Positions 103 through 60,357 of a stretch of 64,000 nucleotides of DNA are shown here, one piece after another. Origin of the DNA: Protonemura montana. Its lineage: Eukaryota; Arthropoda; Insecta; Plecoptera; Nemouridae. The notes beneath the pieces are model-generated. The model had not been told where the DNA came from. It saw only the letters and a program-made list of their open reading frames with translations, and did no database searches. Position 1 is the first letter of the stretch; each line of letters begins with the position of its first letter. Both the position numbers and the translations under genes were made by a program. The stretch spans positions 6,762,418-6,826,417 of the forward strand of contig OX387605.1 of NCBI GenBank assembly GCA_947568835.1, in the 5' to 3' direction.

Positions 103-711
103 ATGGGCGGACTGCGAACCAGGACTATGTGGACATCGGCCGCGATCCTTGCATTAGCAGTCTGCGCGGCGACCGCGTTTGTCCTCGAAGGCTCGCAAAC
201 TTCGTACGCACAGTTTAGGAAATGGAACGCAGGGCTAAACGGCTCGTTAGAACTAGAATTAAAAACAAATCAGCCCAATGGACTGCTGTTGTACACTGAC
301 GACGGCGGGACGTACGACTTTTTCGAACTGAAATTAGTAGAGGGTGCGCTCAGGCTTCGCTACAATCTCGGCGGAGGCGCCCAGATTTTAACCGTTGGTC
401 GTGACTTGAATGACGGACACTGGCACAAAGTGCAGGTGCAGAGAGACGGCGAGAAGACCTCGTTGACGGTTGATGGCGAGACGCAGACGAGGGCGTCTCG
501 AGGGAAAGAGTTCCTGTTCGGGCGGCTGGCGTCCAACTCTGACGTGTACGTGGGCGGCATGCCGGCGTGGTACAACACCAAGTTGACGCTCCTCGCATTG
601 CCAAGCGTAATCTTTGAGCCGCGCTTCGGCGGCGCCGTGCGGAATCTCGTCTACGCCGACGAAGAAGGTGGCATGCCGCGCAGACAGGAGATGAAGATGA
701 AAGACTTTAAG
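103..711 (+). CDS. Nrx-1: Neurexin exon 1: signal peptide and LNS1 domain
   Basis: This is the N-terminus of alpha-neurexin, a single-pass presynaptic adhesion receptor. The ATG at 103 (MGGLRTRTMW) is chosen as the first in-frame ATG. The ATG at 127 has an A at -3 and is a good alternative. Both lead into a hydrophobic core (AAILALAVCAATA), a clear signal peptide with likely cleavage just after it. The rest is one laminin-G/LNS fold of about 180 residues with family landmarks: FRKWNAG, NQPNGLLLYTDDGG, LNDGHWHKVQVQRDG, DVYVGGMP and VRNLVYADE. A sequon (NGS) lies near the mature N-terminus. The mature LNS1 part has no cysteine. The exon ends AAG|GTAATA after MKDFK in phase 0, matching the phase-0 start of the EGF exon 20 kb away. 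Identification as neurexin is strong; the choice between the two ATGs is open. Confidence 0.93.
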
Positions 712-3333: not shown

Positions 3334-4646
3334 AATTCTTCTCAAAGAGCTGACTCAATTTCTCTTCCACTTCACTAATTGATTTGTCTTCACTTTCACT
3401 TCTGTTCTGCTCACACATAAAAGAGAAAAAAAAAAAACACTGACTGAAAATTTCATTCGCACGTTAGACACGATTCTGATTCCTTGATACGTCCCAGACC
3501 CAGTCAACCAAATCTAAAAACTTTAGCTGCAACTTTGCACGAGATTTTATTTCAGGAATGCTGATTGAGCAAACACTTTTTTACATCTCCATCTCGCATC
3601 CAAGCATATAACTTCTCTTGATATAATTTCAAAATTTTCTCAGATGGCACGATTAAACTAAATTACCCAACTAGTTTGCTGCCAGTTTGATTTCGAAGCC
3701 GGCGTATTGACGAGCTTGTTTCTGTGTTGCAGTGCGGTGGATTCCATTGTTCAGGGGCGACTAGCCTGGTTCGCGGCAAGACTACACGGGTAAGTTTACT
3801 GTCAGGTGTTGCAAGACGTTTCCAGGTTTAGTCTAGAGTCCCAGTGCTGATGTCAAACGTTCTGCTGAGAAAACGAGCCGGCAACACGTGGCAATGGTAA
3901 GTGCTACCCCATGGCGCTGGAGGTATTATCAATGTTGATTACTCGTGCGAAATCCAACCTCAAACGCTAGTGATCTACAAGATGTAACGGGATTCAATTG
4001 AATAACTCTCAAAGCGACGGTACCTCATTTATTAACTTTTTCATTTCGTCGGAATTATTTTCTAAGACGGTGCCTCCATCTTTTCCCTGTTACATTTTTC
4101 TTCGGTTTCGTAGCTGATAGTTCGGTATCATTTGCAAAGAAAGTTTTAAATTAGCTCTGGGGCTCTGACTAAACCTGTAAGCCCAATGGAGCAAGGTGAC
4201 AAGGCCACGTTACCAAACGGCCTATTCCCAGTCGAGTTTCCGATTTCTTTAGCAGCCCAAATGCAAGAGCATTTGATCGTCGCTCGGAGTGGCGATCGGA
4301 GAGAGAAATTGGGCAACTATTTTGTAGTTGTGTGCATTGATCTCGATTTAAAATATACGATAGTAATTATGGAAAATTTCATGTTGCGCAAAGAAATATT
4401 TTGAAGGGGTTTTACTCTGTATTTTAAACTTTTCTTCTGTGTTGCTTTAAATCTACTCACACAGAACAGAGTACGTTTTAAATTGTTGCAATCACAAGAA
4501 ATTATTGTTGACCAGAGAAGATTTAAAAATCTCATGAACTAGACGCTAGTTAGCTGGCAGTTGAAAACGAGAAGATAAGTGTGACAGTGGAGGATGTAGG
4601 TGGTTAAAAAAATGAAAGAGATCTGGGGAGACGTGGAGGAGCCGTA

Positions 4647-4999: not shown

Positions 5000-7900
5000 T
5001 CAAGTCTCGTGTCCGAAATGAAGTATTTTCTACCCGTTTTATTAATGGATGAAAAATAAACAGATATAAAAATATTTGTGCAACGTTAAGTCAAAAAAAA
5101 TATTAAAAATAATCTTTGTGTATTTTGCGTTTCTGTGGTGTGTTTGCACGATAACAACTAAATTTAAGTAAACAGACAAATATTTTTAGATCGTAGATTG
5201 TATTATAGTCTTTCAAATTAATGCGCTGTAAGCCATACATCAATATAATAAATTCAAGTCTGTCTACGATCAATCGAATCGATGTTGCTAGTTGAAGTAT
5301 GGGAAGATTTCAAATGGGTAAAGAGGTCAAGCGGCATCGGGCAGAGTAACGCATATGCGTTTATAAAGGAGAATGACATGAAATTCTAACTTGTGAAATG
5401 CTAAAACTATCACATGTCTGACTTTCCTCGTCACGCTGCAAACACGACGAACGAAATGGGGCTGCGGTTCACGCTGCAACATGTCTGACTGCACCTTGCG
5501 AAAGTCATGAATAACTAGGAACGATTTCTACAAAGCCAGAGAGCAGCAATCACATTCATAACAAGTTCCTAGAACATTGTCGCAAAGAGAATTTACAAAG
5601 GAAAAGTTTTTATTAAATCGCTAGACTTTGATCTGAGCTGTACATAATTAATGGGAACATGATACTGAAACTAGAAAGAGGTTCAATGCTGGGCATGGTA
5701 TTGATATTCTGCCATGCAAATACTGAGAAATGTAATATGCTTAAAATGTGGGAGTATTTTTAGTCTACGACCAGAGTAATTTGTAAAAGGTACGGTGTTT
5801 AGACGGAAAGTTGAATTCCACATACGTTCTACTTCACATAGCAGCGTTTAGAGAGTTATGTGGGTGTATTATCTTTGATTTGACCTTCTCTTTGAATCAA
5901 CGTACTTGATATGCGGCTTTATATCTTACTCTACGAGTTACGTGTGAGTTTAATTTGAAAAGGAAAAAGCATGCTACGGGTAAAAAAATATACTTTTAAA
6001 ACAACTCTGGCATCGTAATGAAAATAAACACTTTTCATGGAATCGGAAAATCGTTAAATAATAGTGAATACGCGTAGATATATACTGGCTTAAAAAACAG
6101 CAGCTAAAATTATTTTGTGAGAGATATTTGTCAGTCACGAAAAAATTTTCCTGGGACTCGATAATGCACCGCGTTTCCATACATGTGGGTTTTGCCACGA
6201 AAAAAAAACATTTTCAGAATGGATTGTGAAATGGTGACATATGAAGGCATGTAATTTAACCTACATGCCTCATTGCATGTACCTTCGAATTAATTTACTA
6301 ACATACTCGTTCTTTTAGCAGAAACTAATTTAATTTTGTTATTTCATACTAACAAGCTCTGGGATTATATGAATTTATCGCAAATACCTGACTTGTCGTC
6401 TGGCATTATAATTATAAGTTTGCAAACATAGTTTGGCGGATATTTGGTGTGAGGACTTCATCTCGGTGCAGCAAATGGAGTAAGTGGAGCCTTACAGTGA
6501 ATGAAATGCAACTGAACAGCTTTTTGCAACTAAATGGAACGTAGGTTCGTGATTATCAAACTTATGTTCTCATTAAAATGGTCAGCGCTGAGCGGCAGGC
6601 AGTTTAACGAGGTCAACTAGACACGTACGAGCTCGAACACTCGTCTCTGTCTACAACCCCAGCCCGCCAGAATATTTGACATGGAACAATTAGGACAGAG
6701 TCCTAGACTTATGCTTTCATTAAACGGGAATTTATATCACCGCCTTTTGACATATTCCATTAGTTTGTTAAGTGTCCCACTCGAAATAATTACAACTAAA
6801 ACAATGCATTTAGAGCAGAAATACCAGAGCACACTTGGCTCAATTGAATGGTGGATTAAGACAACAAACCGTTTTAAACGCGGTCATTTATCATTCAACT
6901 TTGTTCTTTTCTCTGTGTAGCATTTATATTACGAAAGCATGTGAATGATAGTATTTTATGTAGGAGTGCTTTCGAAACATCAAGCTGAACTCGGTCTAAA
7001 TCATGCATAGAACAACAGTCTAGACAGTGCACACCGAAGCAACATCAGAAATAAAATATTCCGAAAGACAGATGTACTTTAAACATGTGATAACAAAAAT
7101 TATCTCAACAACATTGCGGGTTTTATATAAAATGTAAACGGTAGGTATTCGTAGTAGAAGCAGTTGACGCAAGCATTTTACTAGGAAGTGGGCACCGCCA
7201 CCCTAGACATGTCCAAGTTCATATTACAATCACTATTTTTATTCCATGGTAAATAAGCAGTTACTGTATTCTAGGAAATTGTATTCGTTAACCACACTTT
7301 TACGTCGTGGAAACATTTCGAGAAAATTTCCAGTAGATGCAACACGTATTCAGGTAGTGCATGCATACGAATAGTCTGACAATGGAGATACCATGATATT
7401 TGCAAGTTCAGAACAAAAACCTAATGCCAAAAGGCCAAACACTAACAGACCAAAAAAGCCTTCAAAATATCTTCAAATCTTTGTATAACAATCATAGAAG
7501 CCCTCATCTTAAACAATTACTTTATTCAAAACGTTCAAGCCCTAGGGTTGTATTACTCGGGACTGAATTGTTGGATCTAAAATACTCCAACGATCCCAAA
7601 CTTCATTATCAACTCTATGTACATGCCGCTAACTCGTGCGTTCCCCTAACACCATGCAGTCACATGGCATCACCTAGATATCCAGAATAGGTTAATTATC
7701 CCCTAAAGCCCTCCACCTTTCGACCTCTGGCACCCCTATTTCGATACCGCCCACCGTCGCCGCCACCACCGCCACCAAAACGTGCACACACTAACACACC
7801 TCCCGTGCCCAGGTTGCAACGTGTACCCTGAATTCGTGATGCGCCGATCTATGCGCAATTCCTCGGGCCTGTACAGGGACCTAGGGCCACTACACTTGGC

Positions 7901-20760: not shown

Positions 20761-20896
20761 GGCATCCGAGGCAACGCTAGTGACGCCTGCGAGGACCATG
20801 ATCCGTGCCAACACGGCGGCATCTGCATATCCACTGACTCGGGGCCCATCTGCGAATGCCGTAATCTCGACTATGAGGGCATCTTCTGCGAAAAAG
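20761..20896 (+). CDS. Nrx-1: Neurexin exon 2: first EGF-like repeat
   Basis: The exon encodes 45 codons plus one base. It starts GIRGNASDACEDHDPC and ends IFCEK, followed by the G of a split codon. Six cysteines at exon residues 10, 16, 22, 31, 33 and 43 give the complete C1 to C6 EGF pattern, including the usual HGGIC turn and CEC pair. NAS is a sequon at the LNS1-EGF junction. The acceptor is CTCTTTGCAG and the donor AAG|GTAGGC. It enters in phase 0 and leaves in phase 1. In alpha-neurexins this EGF joins LNS1 to the LNS2 module, and vertebrates place splice site 1 just after it, at the position of this exon end. Reading through the donor gives a hydrophobic tail and a stop at 21051, listed separately as an observation. 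Confidence 0.95.
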
Positions 20897-47829: not shown

Positions 47830-47979
47830 ATAAAGCGCCATCGGAAGCGACATTCAGAGGTGCCGAGTATTTATCGTACGACTTGAGTCGCACCGGGGGC
47901 GAACCGATTGTAAGCAGCCAAGACGCCATCTCGCTCTACTTCAAGACGCGCCAACCGAACGGACTTCTCTTCTACACAG
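47830..47979 (+). CDS. Nrx-1: Neurexin exon 3: start of LNS2
   Basis: The first two bases complete a GAT (Asp) codon with the last G of exon 2. The frame then reads [40 protein letters not shown] and QPNGLLFYT. These are the opening strands of an LNS domain, with the neurexin pattern FxGxEYLSYDL and the family turn [10 protein letters not shown]. The acceptor is GCTTGCAG|AT and the donor ACAG|GTGAGT. The exon enters and leaves in phase 1. In vertebrate alpha-neurexins LNS2 binds neurexophilin and dystroglycan. Whether insect LNS2 has equivalent ligands cannot be told from sequence. Confidence 0.95.
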
Positions 47980-52131: not shown

Positions 52132-52292
52132 GTCACGCATCCGACTACTTGAACCTCGCGCTGAAAGACGGCGGGGTGGTGCTGTCGATGAACCTCGGCA
52201 ACGGCAAGTCCGATGTGCAGATCAAGCCAAACAGAGTGCGATTCGACGACAACCAATGGCACAAAATCACCGTGCACAGACGGATACAAGAA
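52132..52292 (+). CDS. Nrx-1: Neurexin exon 4: middle of LNS2
   Basis: The first two bases complete a Gly codon. The frame then reads HASDYLNLALKDGGVVLSMN, LGNGKSDVQIKPNRVRFDDN and QWHKITVHRRIQE. The FDDNQWHKITVHR segment is the strongly conserved laminin-G signature, and DYLNLALKDG is the neurexin LNS2 strand. The acceptor is CTGCTCCAG|GT and the donor GAA|GTAAGT. It leaves in phase 0 after RIQE, which is the vertebrate SS2 position (human LNS2 reads RNLRQ there, from memory). The next exon is a 27-base microexon 3.2 kb downstream. Confidence 0.95.
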
Positions 52293-55200: not shown

Positions 55201-55472
55201 GTCAGAGGCTAATTCACGCAGACATAAGTAGCGGATAAAGTCACAGCAGCAAGCATGTTCACCGACTACTGAAAGGAGAAACGTCAAAGCTATTGCGTCA
55301 GAAGCGACGCTACAGCTATCACCTCGCTCTCATTTAATCAATGCGTTGAGGCTTCTTCTCTTCTTGAGGCACTTGATCTTTTGGTGCTAACTGTGTTCCA
55401 GCTGTACTTGAATTGAGTATTAGCTGCACTTTTAAAATCGTAACTCATATATGTTTTTTATGTTTCCTACAG
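52293..55472 (+). other. Neurexin intron 4 (about 3.2 kb)
   Basis: Phase-0 intron from GTAAGT to TTTCCTACAG, upstream of the microexon. Nothing else recognised. Intronic control elements for the microexon would be expected near 55350-55472, where the sequence is T-rich (ATGTTTTTTATGTTTCCTAC). Confidence 0.85.
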
Positions 55473-55499
55473 ATATCCGCGGTGACAAGCTTTTGTAGG
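55473..55499 (+). CDS. Nrx-1: Neurexin exon 5: 27-base microexon at SS2
   Basis: The exon is ATATCCGCGGTGACAAGC followed by TTTTGTAGG, reading ISAVTSFCR. It is preceded by TATGTTTCCTACAG and followed by the near-perfect donor GTAAGTG. Both ends are phase 0, so inclusion or skipping leaves the frame intact and adds or removes nine residues between RIQE and LSAVVDG. I recall Drosophila Nrx-1 with a closely similar peptide (ISSITSFCR) at this point. The position equals vertebrate splice site 2 in LNS2, where inserts are 8 to 15 residues and one form also brings a cysteine. SS2 is reported to tune dystroglycan binding in vertebrates. Whether it is alternative here needs RNA data. The short length hides it from ordinary gene finders. 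Confidence 0.88.
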
Positions 55500-56691
55500 G
55501 TAAGTGTCTTCAGATTTTCAGTAGCATGAATTTACAGATAAAAACGCAGCCGATTTCTCTGCAATGAACATGCTCGGGCACATTTTTGAACCACATTATT
55601 GAAGCAGTAGCGGAAGCGTTCAGCGGGTTTTTTGCGAGAAATCTCAAGAGAATTTTTTTTTCGGATAATCTGGAGTTTTATTGGAACATTGTATTTTTGT
55701 GATACGTTAATCCTAGGATTAAAATCTTTTCCTCGTATCATTTTTCTGTTGGATTTCATGCTATTTCTCTTTCTGTAACTGTATAGGCTGGATGCCATGA
55801 GTTCGTAACAGCGATATTAATGTAATCGTATCTACTGAAAATACTATAATTGAGTACATACATAATCTCATTACCCTCAATTTATATCAATTTCTGACCG
55901 AATTCTCTTTCAAATACCAGCCATAGGAAGCCAAACATGGCCAACATATATTGAAAATGCTCGTGTAAATCCTAGAATGAACATGTCGGCATGATCCGTC
56001 GCTTAGATTCGGTCCATCAGGGTGTTCATATGTGAGCAATTTCGAGTCGGCGCCTCCAGTCCACGGAAAGCCGTTCATAACCAAAATTCGCGTTGAGATA
56101 TTACAGCGTTCCCTTTCACCATAAACATATTCTTCCGCCTCCCTTTCACTCCCTTCAGCGTCCAGAAACTCGAAGTTGAACCCCGCGGAAGATATTACCT
56201 TCGGCACGTGATTGATATGCCGTTTAAAAATCTTGTATACTGGCTGAATACATCTTGGTTTTATGTAGATATTTTGATTGATGGGTAAGCAATCACCCTC
56301 CTCTTTTTCTTCATAATGGATCCTTGTTTTTTTATAATTTTATGGGTTGGAGTATCGTTACCGATTTGCGGACGTGGAAGCTAAAGAGCTTAAAAAAGGA
56401 GGAAAAACTTTAGGGAAAACCATAGACATGGCTTACAATGTGAAACCATGATAACATTTTAATTGGAGCTATGGGTAAAAATTAGATTAAAGTTGTGTGC
56501 CCTGCGGATATGGTTTTAGCGTTCAGGTACACACTTGGCTGGAAATGAGCTACCATTATCAAAGTTATTTCAGAAAAACCACTCTGATTTATTGCATGAC
56601 GACCGCGAGCTTGCATGGTGCTATCTACGGTGCTATCAACGAGGGGTTTTGCATGAGTGATAAATGCAATTCGATTTCTTCCTTGAATCAG
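55500..56691 (+). other. Neurexin intron 5 (about 1.2 kb)
   Basis: Phase-0 intron from GTAAGTG to TTCCTTGAATCAG. A minus-strand frame of 106 codons at 55887-56207 shows no recognisable domain and is taken as chance. One GGCGCCTCCA near-match to the dispersed 10-mer lies at 56049. Confidence 0.87.
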
Positions 56692-56850
56692 CTGTCTGCC
56701 GTGGTGGACGGAGTGTACACGGACCACTCGAACACGGCCGGTACCTTCACCATGCTGTCATCAAGCCGGATGTTTGTTGGGGGCAGCCAGAATACATTCA
56801 CCTTGCCGGGCTCGAAGATCAAGAACAATTTCGTAGGGTGCCTCAGAAAG
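56692..56850 (+). CDS. Nrx-1: Neurexin exon 6: C-terminal half of LNS2
   Basis: The exon has 53 codons in phase 0 at both ends: LSAVVDGVYTDHSNTAGTFT, MLSSSRMFVGGSQNTFTLPG and SKIKNNFVGCLRK. VDGVYTDHS and SSRMFVGG are LNS strands. NNFVGCLRK holds the first cysteine of the C-terminal laminin-G disulfide, whose partner lies in the next exon (DFMC). The acceptor is CTTGAATCAG, rather weak, and the donor is AAAG|GTGAGT. The weak acceptor directly after the SS2 microexon is worth noting because it could allow regulated splicing. Frames running upstream of 56692 are intronic. Confidence 0.95.
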
Positions 56851-57320: not shown

Positions 57321-60201
57321 ATATCTTTGAAATATGAGAAGCTTGCTGAAAATGACGTTTTTCAGAGAGTGGTTAGTGTTCCCATACCCGGGGGACAGTT
57401 TTGGGCAAAATTTAACAGTGCATTGTGATTTGTTTCTACAGTTTTTATGATTTTCTTTTGAACCTTTTTGCCATGGGCTGGAATTGACGGCTTACAGTGA
57501 GTTAATGAGGCCTGGAAAACCGCGGCGCAATTTTGGGCACTTTTTGAGGTACGTTTGAGACTCATTTAGTGCAAAACACTTTTCGTGCGCTACACTTCAC
57601 ATGGTGTGTGCCATCCCCCTGTGACAGGGAGCCTCACCCCTTGTCATTACTTCCGCATCGCCCCCGTAGGGCGCCTAGGGCGAAGCCCTATACAGGAAAT
57701 TAAGGCCTCAGTTAAAATGATTTTCACGCAGGGTGCTAAAGGCTGTCAAATTCAGCAATTTCAGGTAAGCTGTAGAGCTTGAAAGCAACTGTCATCGGGG
57801 GCAACAACACACATACACATGACAAAGACCAACCGTGTTTGCACTAAACAAAGTTCACGTCCTCCCCAAAGAATCGTGTCGTGGCCTAACCTCCCAGCAT
57901 AACATCCAAGTACCCCCTCGGGCCAATCCGATCCCAGTTACTGCGATATCCATTGGCAAAGATAGTTTCCAGCAGACATAACTCCGACTATCCTGGAAGA
58001 AGGAGAAGCTAGATAAACTTTGCGGATTACTATTTTCCTTTATCAAGATGCATTACCAAAGGTGCTCCCCAGCGAGATGAACCCATACCTACCCATCTAC
58101 TCTTCGCTAGCGCACACTTAACAATTGTGACCCAATTTTCGCGTTAACCTAGATTTGGTGCTCGAACTACGATTCGTTGCTCATGTCTCACAGATTTCGA
58201 AAAGCTACTTTTGTTACACGGCACGGATGATAACGCTGCTAGATTTTCATTTATTAACGCGGCCCCAAACTGTGCATTATGAATAATTAACCAATGAAAC
58301 TATCCATTTTGTACGTGACTTTAATGATAAAACTATGTGCTATGGTAATTTTCCAATAATAGGATTTATCCCGTGCAGTTCCTTATCATCAGGTGCGACT
58401 TAGAATAAAGCGACGACAAAGTTTAACCCGAACTTTATTCGACTAGAAATATATTTCTCTGTTTTATCACGAATTTTCCTGGAGAAGAATTTATCGTCTC
58501 TTATTTGTTCGACACGTCACTTGCATCACTTCGCAACTATATTCTAAAAGTGTATTCTACTTTGCTAACTTCGTTCGTGAAGAAGCAAGTTGAAATATTA
58601 CGAACTACTCTCAGCCATCCAATCTAATCTTGCTTTATTATCCGCAAGTTCAAAAGGAGAACAATCTTATTTAAGAAAGTCGTAAGATTGTACATAAGCA
58701 ACGTTGTCCCGAGAGTGAGAAGGGTTTGCCTGGGACATTCGGAATCTCGCATGATCGTTCTGTGGGGATGCTGTTCTTCTGTTGCTTTCGCGAAGAAATA
58801 AAAGAGGTCACCCGGTCAGATGGCTACTCAAACATTTATGGAGGTAATTTTAATGAAACATGCTCAAGGGAAGTAATCGAATCATTTCTGCAACATGAAA
58901 TGGGCTTGCCGGTTGGGAAAGGAAGCACTTGAGACACGAAGATGTTATGTCTCAGTCCCATAATACTTGTGTTTTTAAATATATGGTATGTCTCATGTTA
59001 TTTCAAAATATACGGTTAATTAAACAATAATCTTTACGATCTAACAAAAAAGGGGAAAATTGCAACGATTTCCAAAATGTTGGCTTAACTGGGTCAAACT
59101 CTAATAAAATTGTGTGCAATCGAGGACTTGCTAACTTTGTTTCATTTTCAACCTAGCACGTTGTCTGTACTCTTGCAGAGAAGCACGCTAAAATGGGCCC
59201 AATATTTGTAGGCGTGTGCCAAAGCTTCTAAAATTGCAAACAATGTCCATTTGTTATAATATATTGTCATCTCATCCTCATAAGAGTAGGCTTTCAAAGA
59301 GCATGCGACACCCCTAATTTTCTCTCGGGGAAAATAAGTGTATTTTTCACGAACGCCGTCCAAATATCCCGCCAGTGTCTACTTGCAAGATTGCGTCAGG
59401 AAAATCCGAGAACGCACGCTTTTCTTACCGCCCATCGGCGACCTTAACATCCCTACGACTCGGTCGTATGTTGAACAAACCTGCCAAGCACTCAAACAAC
59501 ACAGGGAGAGTAACTCGTTTAAAAATTACACGCTTCCCCAGCCCAATGGGCTTGTGTGATCATTACATTCCCGCCAATTGGTCCCAAAGTCATCGAATCC
59601 TGCAGCCGAACGCAGAAGTCCACTCCCAATTTCCCAGAGCCATTCTCACCACCCCTAGGTATGGCAAAAGACCCACGACCAGTAAAGTTGGTAAAACATA
59701 CCCACTGTCCACTTGCCAAGCCGAAGCTAAGCGTTCAATTCCGAAGCGTTCCATGATTGGTACCTATACTTTTTAGGTCAGTATTTGGCATCAGGCATGC
59801 GACAGTCCATTTTCAGTGTATACCACCAAGTCTTTCTCAAGTTCTTAGAAATGGGGATAAATCTGCCCTTGCCATACCAAGCGCTCTTGCAGACTTGGAG
59901 CGATTTCAGGCACTTTTCAGACCTTCAGACTCAAATTTGCTTCAAACGTGTAGGTACACGTTGCCCCAAAAGAAAACTTTTGTTTTATTCACTTTACTTC
60001 ATTTTTTTCTTTTCTATTTCTTCATACTTGTACACGTGCAAGGTCTGGTAAGTATCCATACCACTTTAGTAGGCACACATAACAAATAAATCGCCGTTAC
60101 CTGGTCTACGCCTTGGCATTATTACAAATCCGCACTCCATACCATCCCCGTGCCCAACAAATTATTTGATTCCGAAACGAGCTATGATTGGTACTTTGCA
60201 G

Positions 60202-60357
60202 GTGGAATTCAGCGCGGACACTCTCCGACTGAATGTGATCGAGCTCGGCCGAGGGGCCGAAAGCAAACTGATTACCGTCGTGGGCCACGTAGACTTCATG
60301 TGTCAAGAGGTCGAAGCAGCGGACCCTGTCACATTCACCACCCGGGACTCGAACCTG
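60202..60357 (+). CDS. Nrx-1: Neurexin exon 7: end of LNS2 and linker to LNS3
   Basis: The exon has 52 codons in phase 0 at both ends: VEFSADTLRLNVIELGRGAE, SKLITVVGHVDFMC, then QEVEAADPVTFTTRDSNL. The cysteine in DFMC pairs with that of NNFVGC in exon 6 in the LNS fold. DPVTFTTRDSNL is the standard opening of neurexin LNS3 (human: DPITFETPESFISL, from memory). The acceptor is GGTACTTTGCAG and the donor CTG|GTGAGT. The frame after the donor reaches a stop within about 10 codons, so an exon end here is well supported. The next exon is expected to start with residues like VLPPW; none was found before 64000. Confidence 0.95.

Follow-up and report, generated by a model that had tools for sequence, protein, structure and literature searches.

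The alpha-neurexin gene of Protonemura montana probably carries a genuine in-frame microexon at the SS2 point of vertebrate neurexins, which would be included by default and would alter ligand binding by the second LNS domain (LNS2), most likely the binding of dystroglycan. Judged from the letters of the DNA, a small exon at this point is very probably real. It lies in the window, that is, the whole stretch of 64,000 nucleotides that was analyzed.

A candidate 27-base exon in an alpha-neurexin gene

Bases 55473-55499 of the forward strand, ATATCCGCGGTGACAAGCTTTTGTAGG, form a 27-base exon that is read in frame 0 as ISAVTSFCR (nine residues), and each non-zero frame contains a stop. The exon is preceded by tttatgtttcctacag and directly followed by the donor gtaagt, and the stretch from the AG at -51 to the acceptor AG at -2 is free of AG. 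The computed phase is 0/0, and the exon thus encodes a separate, frame-preserving peptide at the SS2 point. Because both flanking junctions (at 52292 and 56692) are phase 0, the frame remains intact whether the 27 bases are included or skipped. When the five LNS2 exons were joined, the open frame was 217 residues long with these bases and 208 residues long without them. The letters, the frame and the splice scores confirmed what the sequence-only reading had described, namely a phase-0 exon of 27 bases between RIQE and LSAVVDG whose acceptor is strong and whose donor reads GTAAGT.

Within the window, LNS1 is followed by an EGF exon, then by LNS2 and by the beginning of LNS3 (Table 1), and the remaining LNS and EGF exons lie in downstream loci. 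The neurexin chain, put together by eye from the genomic exons in the window and in loci L003-L005, comprised six LNS domains, three EGF motifs, a stalk, a hydrophobic segment and the C terminus ...KEWYV, as in an alpha-neurexin, which combines LNS-EGF-LNS repeats with a transmembrane segment and a C terminus that binds PDZ domains. When the genome was searched with a 115-residue LNS2 query, ten candidates were scored and two matches were obtained, both of them the neurexin gene's own exons. Further, no relatives were confirmed in the prokaryote and viral collections (phage, plasmid and E. coli sets aside), as expected for an animal gene.

Table 1. Features of the neurexin gene in the window, with the basis of each assignment.
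Feature	Position	Strand	Basis or remark
LNS1 exon with start codon and likely signal peptide (by eye)	127..711	+	Laminin_G_2 at 259-660; exon end placed at the best-scoring donor (711), uncertain
First EGF exon of the same neurexin	20761..20896	+	Splice scores, translation
First LNS2 exon (...LLFYTG)	47830..47979	+	Splice scores, translation
Preceding LNS2 exon, ending ...HKITVHRRIQE, phase 0, donor gtaagt	52132..52292	+	Matches neurexin-1-alpha LNS2 chains
Acceptor region of the microexon: TAAC branch-like site at -32, T-rich tract, tttcctacag	55439..55472	+	Branch site is a motif match only
Candidate microexon, ISAVTSFCR, SS2-position insert of LNS2	55473..55499	+	Letters, translation, splice scores, phmmer position
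Donor of the microexon, gtaagt	55500..55505	+	Log-odds 10.6
Following LNS2 exon, starting LSAVVDG, phase 0, acceptor ttgaatcag	56692..56850	+	Acceptor 3.5, donor 12.0
End of LNS2 and start of the next domain, VEFSADTLRLNVIELGR...	60202..60357	+	Boundaries by best splice score

Other parts of the gene and genome were noted. In locus L004, an intron at 6530-7209 interrupts the last LNS domain (...NHPS, a split G, HQLTVFNSQ; phase 1) at what we take to be the vertebrate SS4 point, and no SS4-like cassette was found in frame in its 680 bases (acceptor 3, donor 4, 6-240 bases). The intron after the last LNS exon (L004, 8092-9069) contains long open frames, one with the zinc-knuckle-like CFSCRQSGHVARNC, which are perhaps the remnant of a mobile element. 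The cuticle family Chitin_bind_4 gave 130 matches in the genome. Further, TTAGG gave 7938 forward and 7633 reverse overlapping matches genome-wide (1 and 0, respectively, for the reversed control), and arrays of it were present at many internal places of contig C1 on both strands. This cuticle family and abundant TTAGG repeats are marks of arthropods, and by them the genome has an arthropod character.

Position of the insert in LNS2

When LNS2 with the insert was used as the phmmer query, 6PNQ scored highest among the single-LNS2 chains (88.4 bits), followed by 2H0B (80.4) and 6PNP (80.2). When the insert was removed, the order was 2H0B (92.4), 6PNP (92.3) and 6PNQ (81.1). Note that 6PNQ is neurexin-1 with the SS2A insert, and its aligned row holds HSGIGHAM where ISAVTSFCR falls; 2H0B and 6PNP are insert-free chains. 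The multi-domain chains 3QCW, 3R05 and 3POY topped both lists, because several of their LNS domains add up; on the LNS2 stretch alone, they scored 74.8 to 75.2 against the query with the insert, versus 87.9 for 6PNQ. Laminin_G_2 (cut-off 22.9) recognized the domain both with the insert (98.4 bits) and, at a higher score, without it (105.6 bits). Thus, relative to 6PNQ, 6PNP and 2H0B, the insert falls at the fixed SS2 point of LNS2, and the earlier claim that a separately encoded peptide sits at the vertebrate SS2 point is borne out by phmmer with and without the insert and by the phase-0 exon.

Vertebrate LNS2 has been described with and without SS2A, the HAM of the insert being numbered 384-386, and the legend of Figure EV2 in the same report refers to aligned LNS2 of ant, fly and sea slug (PMC6856630). 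The resemblance of the peptide itself to the vertebrate SS2A insert was no greater than that of shuffled peptides: ISAVTSFCR against HSGIGHAM gave a global score of -4, which was reached by 2365 of 20000 shuffles, nine residues being too few for a decision on homology. The suggestion in the sequence-only reading that a peptide or splice choice here is ancient gains no support from this comparison.

Splice sites, inclusion and regulation

Splice sites were scored as log-odds using hand-entered, primate-type tables. The acceptor of the microexon scored 9.0 and its donor 10.6, ranking sixth and fourth, respectively, among 16 placed exons of the gene; this ranking leaves aside exon 1, the exon at 47830-47979, two exons whose acceptors are unclear (near 73818 and near 75975) and the last exon. 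The acceptor at 56692 (3.5) was the lowest of the 16 (the next scored 3.7), and the donor at 56850 (12.0) was the highest. The unranked exon at 47830-47979 had an acceptor of 7.2 and a donor of 12.2. The weak acceptor at 56692 is not unique, since the candidate acceptors of the unranked exon near 73818 scored 3.1 and 3.0. A further acceptor, at 56527 (5.9), is in frame with 56692, and its use would insert 55 more residues into LNS2.

Because the acceptor at 55473 is stronger than that at 56692 and competes with it for the donor at 52292, inclusion should be favored. We infer from the strength of both of its own splice sites and the weakness of the next acceptor that the microexon is included by default, and inclusion by default with an effect on ligand binding is the most likely behavior of this exon. 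The sequence-only reading had proposed that the weak acceptor of the next exon would suit regulation. The weakness was found, but the argument for regulation falls away because both isoforms need the acceptor at 56692.

No regulatory code was found around the microexon among GCATG and UGC motifs. The enhancer-type motif GCATG occurs at +25; however, 11 copies are present in the 4372 intron bases, which is the chance level. The 40 bases preceding the microexon are free of UGC, and the nearest upstream TGC is at -48. With this spacing and an acceptor of 9.0, the exon does not look like the eMIC-dependent type, which combines a weak 3' splice site with a nearby UGC. A search for the eMIC domain gave no match, with the controls equally silent.

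One alternative is that the exon is a regulated cassette, subject to SS2-like neuronal alternative splicing that goes back to the bilaterian ancestor or arose in parallel. Its 27-base, symmetric phase-0 form is consistent with this, as is the finding that each product scores best against the matching single-domain structure. Further, SS2 coincides with an exon junction in the honeybee, and the site equivalent to SS1 is alternatively spliced in the bee gene (PMC2570956). Against this, the bee study describes the second variable site of AmNrxI-A2, located in its second LNS domain, as unique to the bee, and SS2 is not reported as alternative in the sections considered (PMC2570956). The strong splice sites and the motif results given above also argue against regulation, and we regard this possibility as falling just short of probable. 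Should some neurons skip the exon, the same residue would be the site of a ligand-switching splice choice in arthropod as well as vertebrate neurexins, and the view that splicing of neurexins arose in vertebrates would become testable.

Another alternative, which is a serious possibility, is that the exon is small but constitutive, with nine residues fixed in arthropod LNS2 and the match to SS2 reflecting an insertion-tolerant loop rather than a splice switch. The fly neurexin protein presumably carries a closely similar stretch at the insert position. The splice sites are strong for this gene, unlike the 3' sites of fly eMIC-dependent microexons (PMC8797185), and a 2025 review indicates that extensive alternative splicing of neurexins is apparently limited to vertebrates (PMC12665717). 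However, a symmetric exon of 27 bases is the form expected of a cassette, and the bee gene yields many alternative neurexin transcripts (PMC2570956). If the exon is always included, arthropod LNS2 may act as permanently SS2-plus, which would affect which ligand binds.

No other acceptor-donor pair 3-60 bases apart reached the scores of the microexon on either strand of the window, whatever the frame. With the thresholds relaxed to 7 (acceptor) and 8 (donor), there were four pairs on the forward strand, including the microexon, and one on the reverse strand. Two of the other forward pairs, 3733-3789 and 57732-57764, are likewise phase 0 and open, and the uniqueness of the microexon pair therefore rests on the strict threshold. 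Within its intron, the microexon was the sole open in-frame candidate of up to 240 bases with an acceptor and a donor both of at least 5, and no second, SS2b-like exon was found there at these scores (6-240 bases, in frame). That 55473-55499 is a fortuitous pair in a 4.4-kb intron and not an exon is very improbable: the window does hold other, weaker pairs that are phase 0 and open, but 1000 first-order Markov copies of the intron contained 0 open multiple-of-three candidates of up to 30 bases and 1 of up to 60 bases, and the pair falls on a known insertion point of LNS2.

The two relaxed-score pairs were noted in their own right. The 57-base phase-0 open stretch at 3733-3789 of the forward strand (CGGFHCSGATSLVRGKTTR; acceptor 7.9, donor 10.8) is located in the intron that separates the LNS1 exon from the first EGF exon, the intron position in which vertebrate SS1 presumably lies, and it could be an SS1-like exon or a product of chance. 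The 33-base phase-0 open stretch at 57732-57764 of the same strand (acceptor 7.3, donor 11.4), in the intron after 56850, is probably a chance pair.

Ligand binding and comparison with known systems

For a microexon included by default, we propose the following mechanism. Nine residues would enter LNS2 at the vertebrate SS2 point via the in-frame exon; if certain neurons or stages skip the exon, the product would be an LNS2 lacking the insert, comparable to the vertebrate SS2-minus form. Judging from the mouse SS2A structure, the insert would extend a strand (beta 9) and reshape the LNS2 edge that adjoins the calcium and ligand site, and ligand binding near the calcium face would change.

Dystroglycan is most likely the ligand affected. 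The genome encodes it (DAG1; four exon matches, best E 4.0e-26); neurexophilins, which are likewise sensitive to SS2, are reported to be absent in invertebrates (PMC6856630). The control of dystroglycan binding is carried over from the mouse. There, no ligand other than dystroglycan is known to bind specifically to LNS2 that lacks an SS2 insert, and neurexophilins bind preferentially when the insert is present (PMC10063607). Mouse SS2 inserts oppose dystroglycan binding and favor neurexophilin (PMC10063607; PMC6856630). A review states the contrary, that neurexophilins require SS2-minus (PMC9812575); this is at odds with the binding data reported in PMC6856630. A neurexophilin search of the present genome gave no match, and its controls were silent too.

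The insert supplies the third cysteine of LNS2. Because the other two appear to match the disulfide pair C444-C480, that of the insert likely has no partner. A cysteine is present in the vertebrate "b" insert as well. We take D329, L346 and M414 of the mouse protein to be calcium ligands. Counted along the phmmer alignment with the numbering of PMC6856630, the residues at these three positions are identical here. Counted in the same way, valine occupies the position of mouse I401, a key neurexophilin contact (PMC6856630).

It seems unlikely that SS2 is a bilaterian-old switch, in which an ancestral phase-0 LNS2 microexon toggled dystroglycan binding and was later recruited by vertebrates for neurexophilins. 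No description of an arthropod SS2 microexon was found in the running text of the literature searched, and literature text containing the peptide fragment TSFCR yielded nothing relevant by title.

Like neural microexons that depend on eMIC (SRRM4/Srrm234), the present exon is 27 bases long, in frame and located in a synaptic gene. However, in eMIC-dependent fly exons the 3' site is extremely weak and UGC lies close to the acceptor (PMC8797185), in contrast to the strong acceptor and the UGC-free 40 bases found here; "Nrx" occurs 0 times in the main text of that report (PMC8797185).

As in vertebrate alpha-neurexins, a small in-frame insert enters LNS2, which is recognized with or without it, and the insertion point lies after RRIQE and before LSAVVDG, corresponding to RNLRQ and VTISVDG in the solved chains. 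Vertebrate inserts had been described in the sequence-only reading as longer. This is incorrect for the common mouse SS2a, which has 8 residues, one fewer than the single 9-residue insert here; only the rare SS2ab, which adds 7 for a total of 15 and amounts to <10% in every neurexin and brain region tested, is longer (PMC10063607). The arthropod gene differs further in that a "b"-like second exon was not found at the thresholds used and in that its peptide is similar only to the level of shuffles.

The closest arthropod parallel in these comparisons is honeybee neurexin I (AmNrxI), encoded by a gene of about 400 kb with 28 exons, which likewise has an exon junction at the vertebrate SS2 point (PMC2570956). 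Human neurexin sites 2 and 4 coincide with intron/exon junctions in the honeybee gene, and a boundary at SS2 in an arthropod is already known from the bee (PMC2570956).
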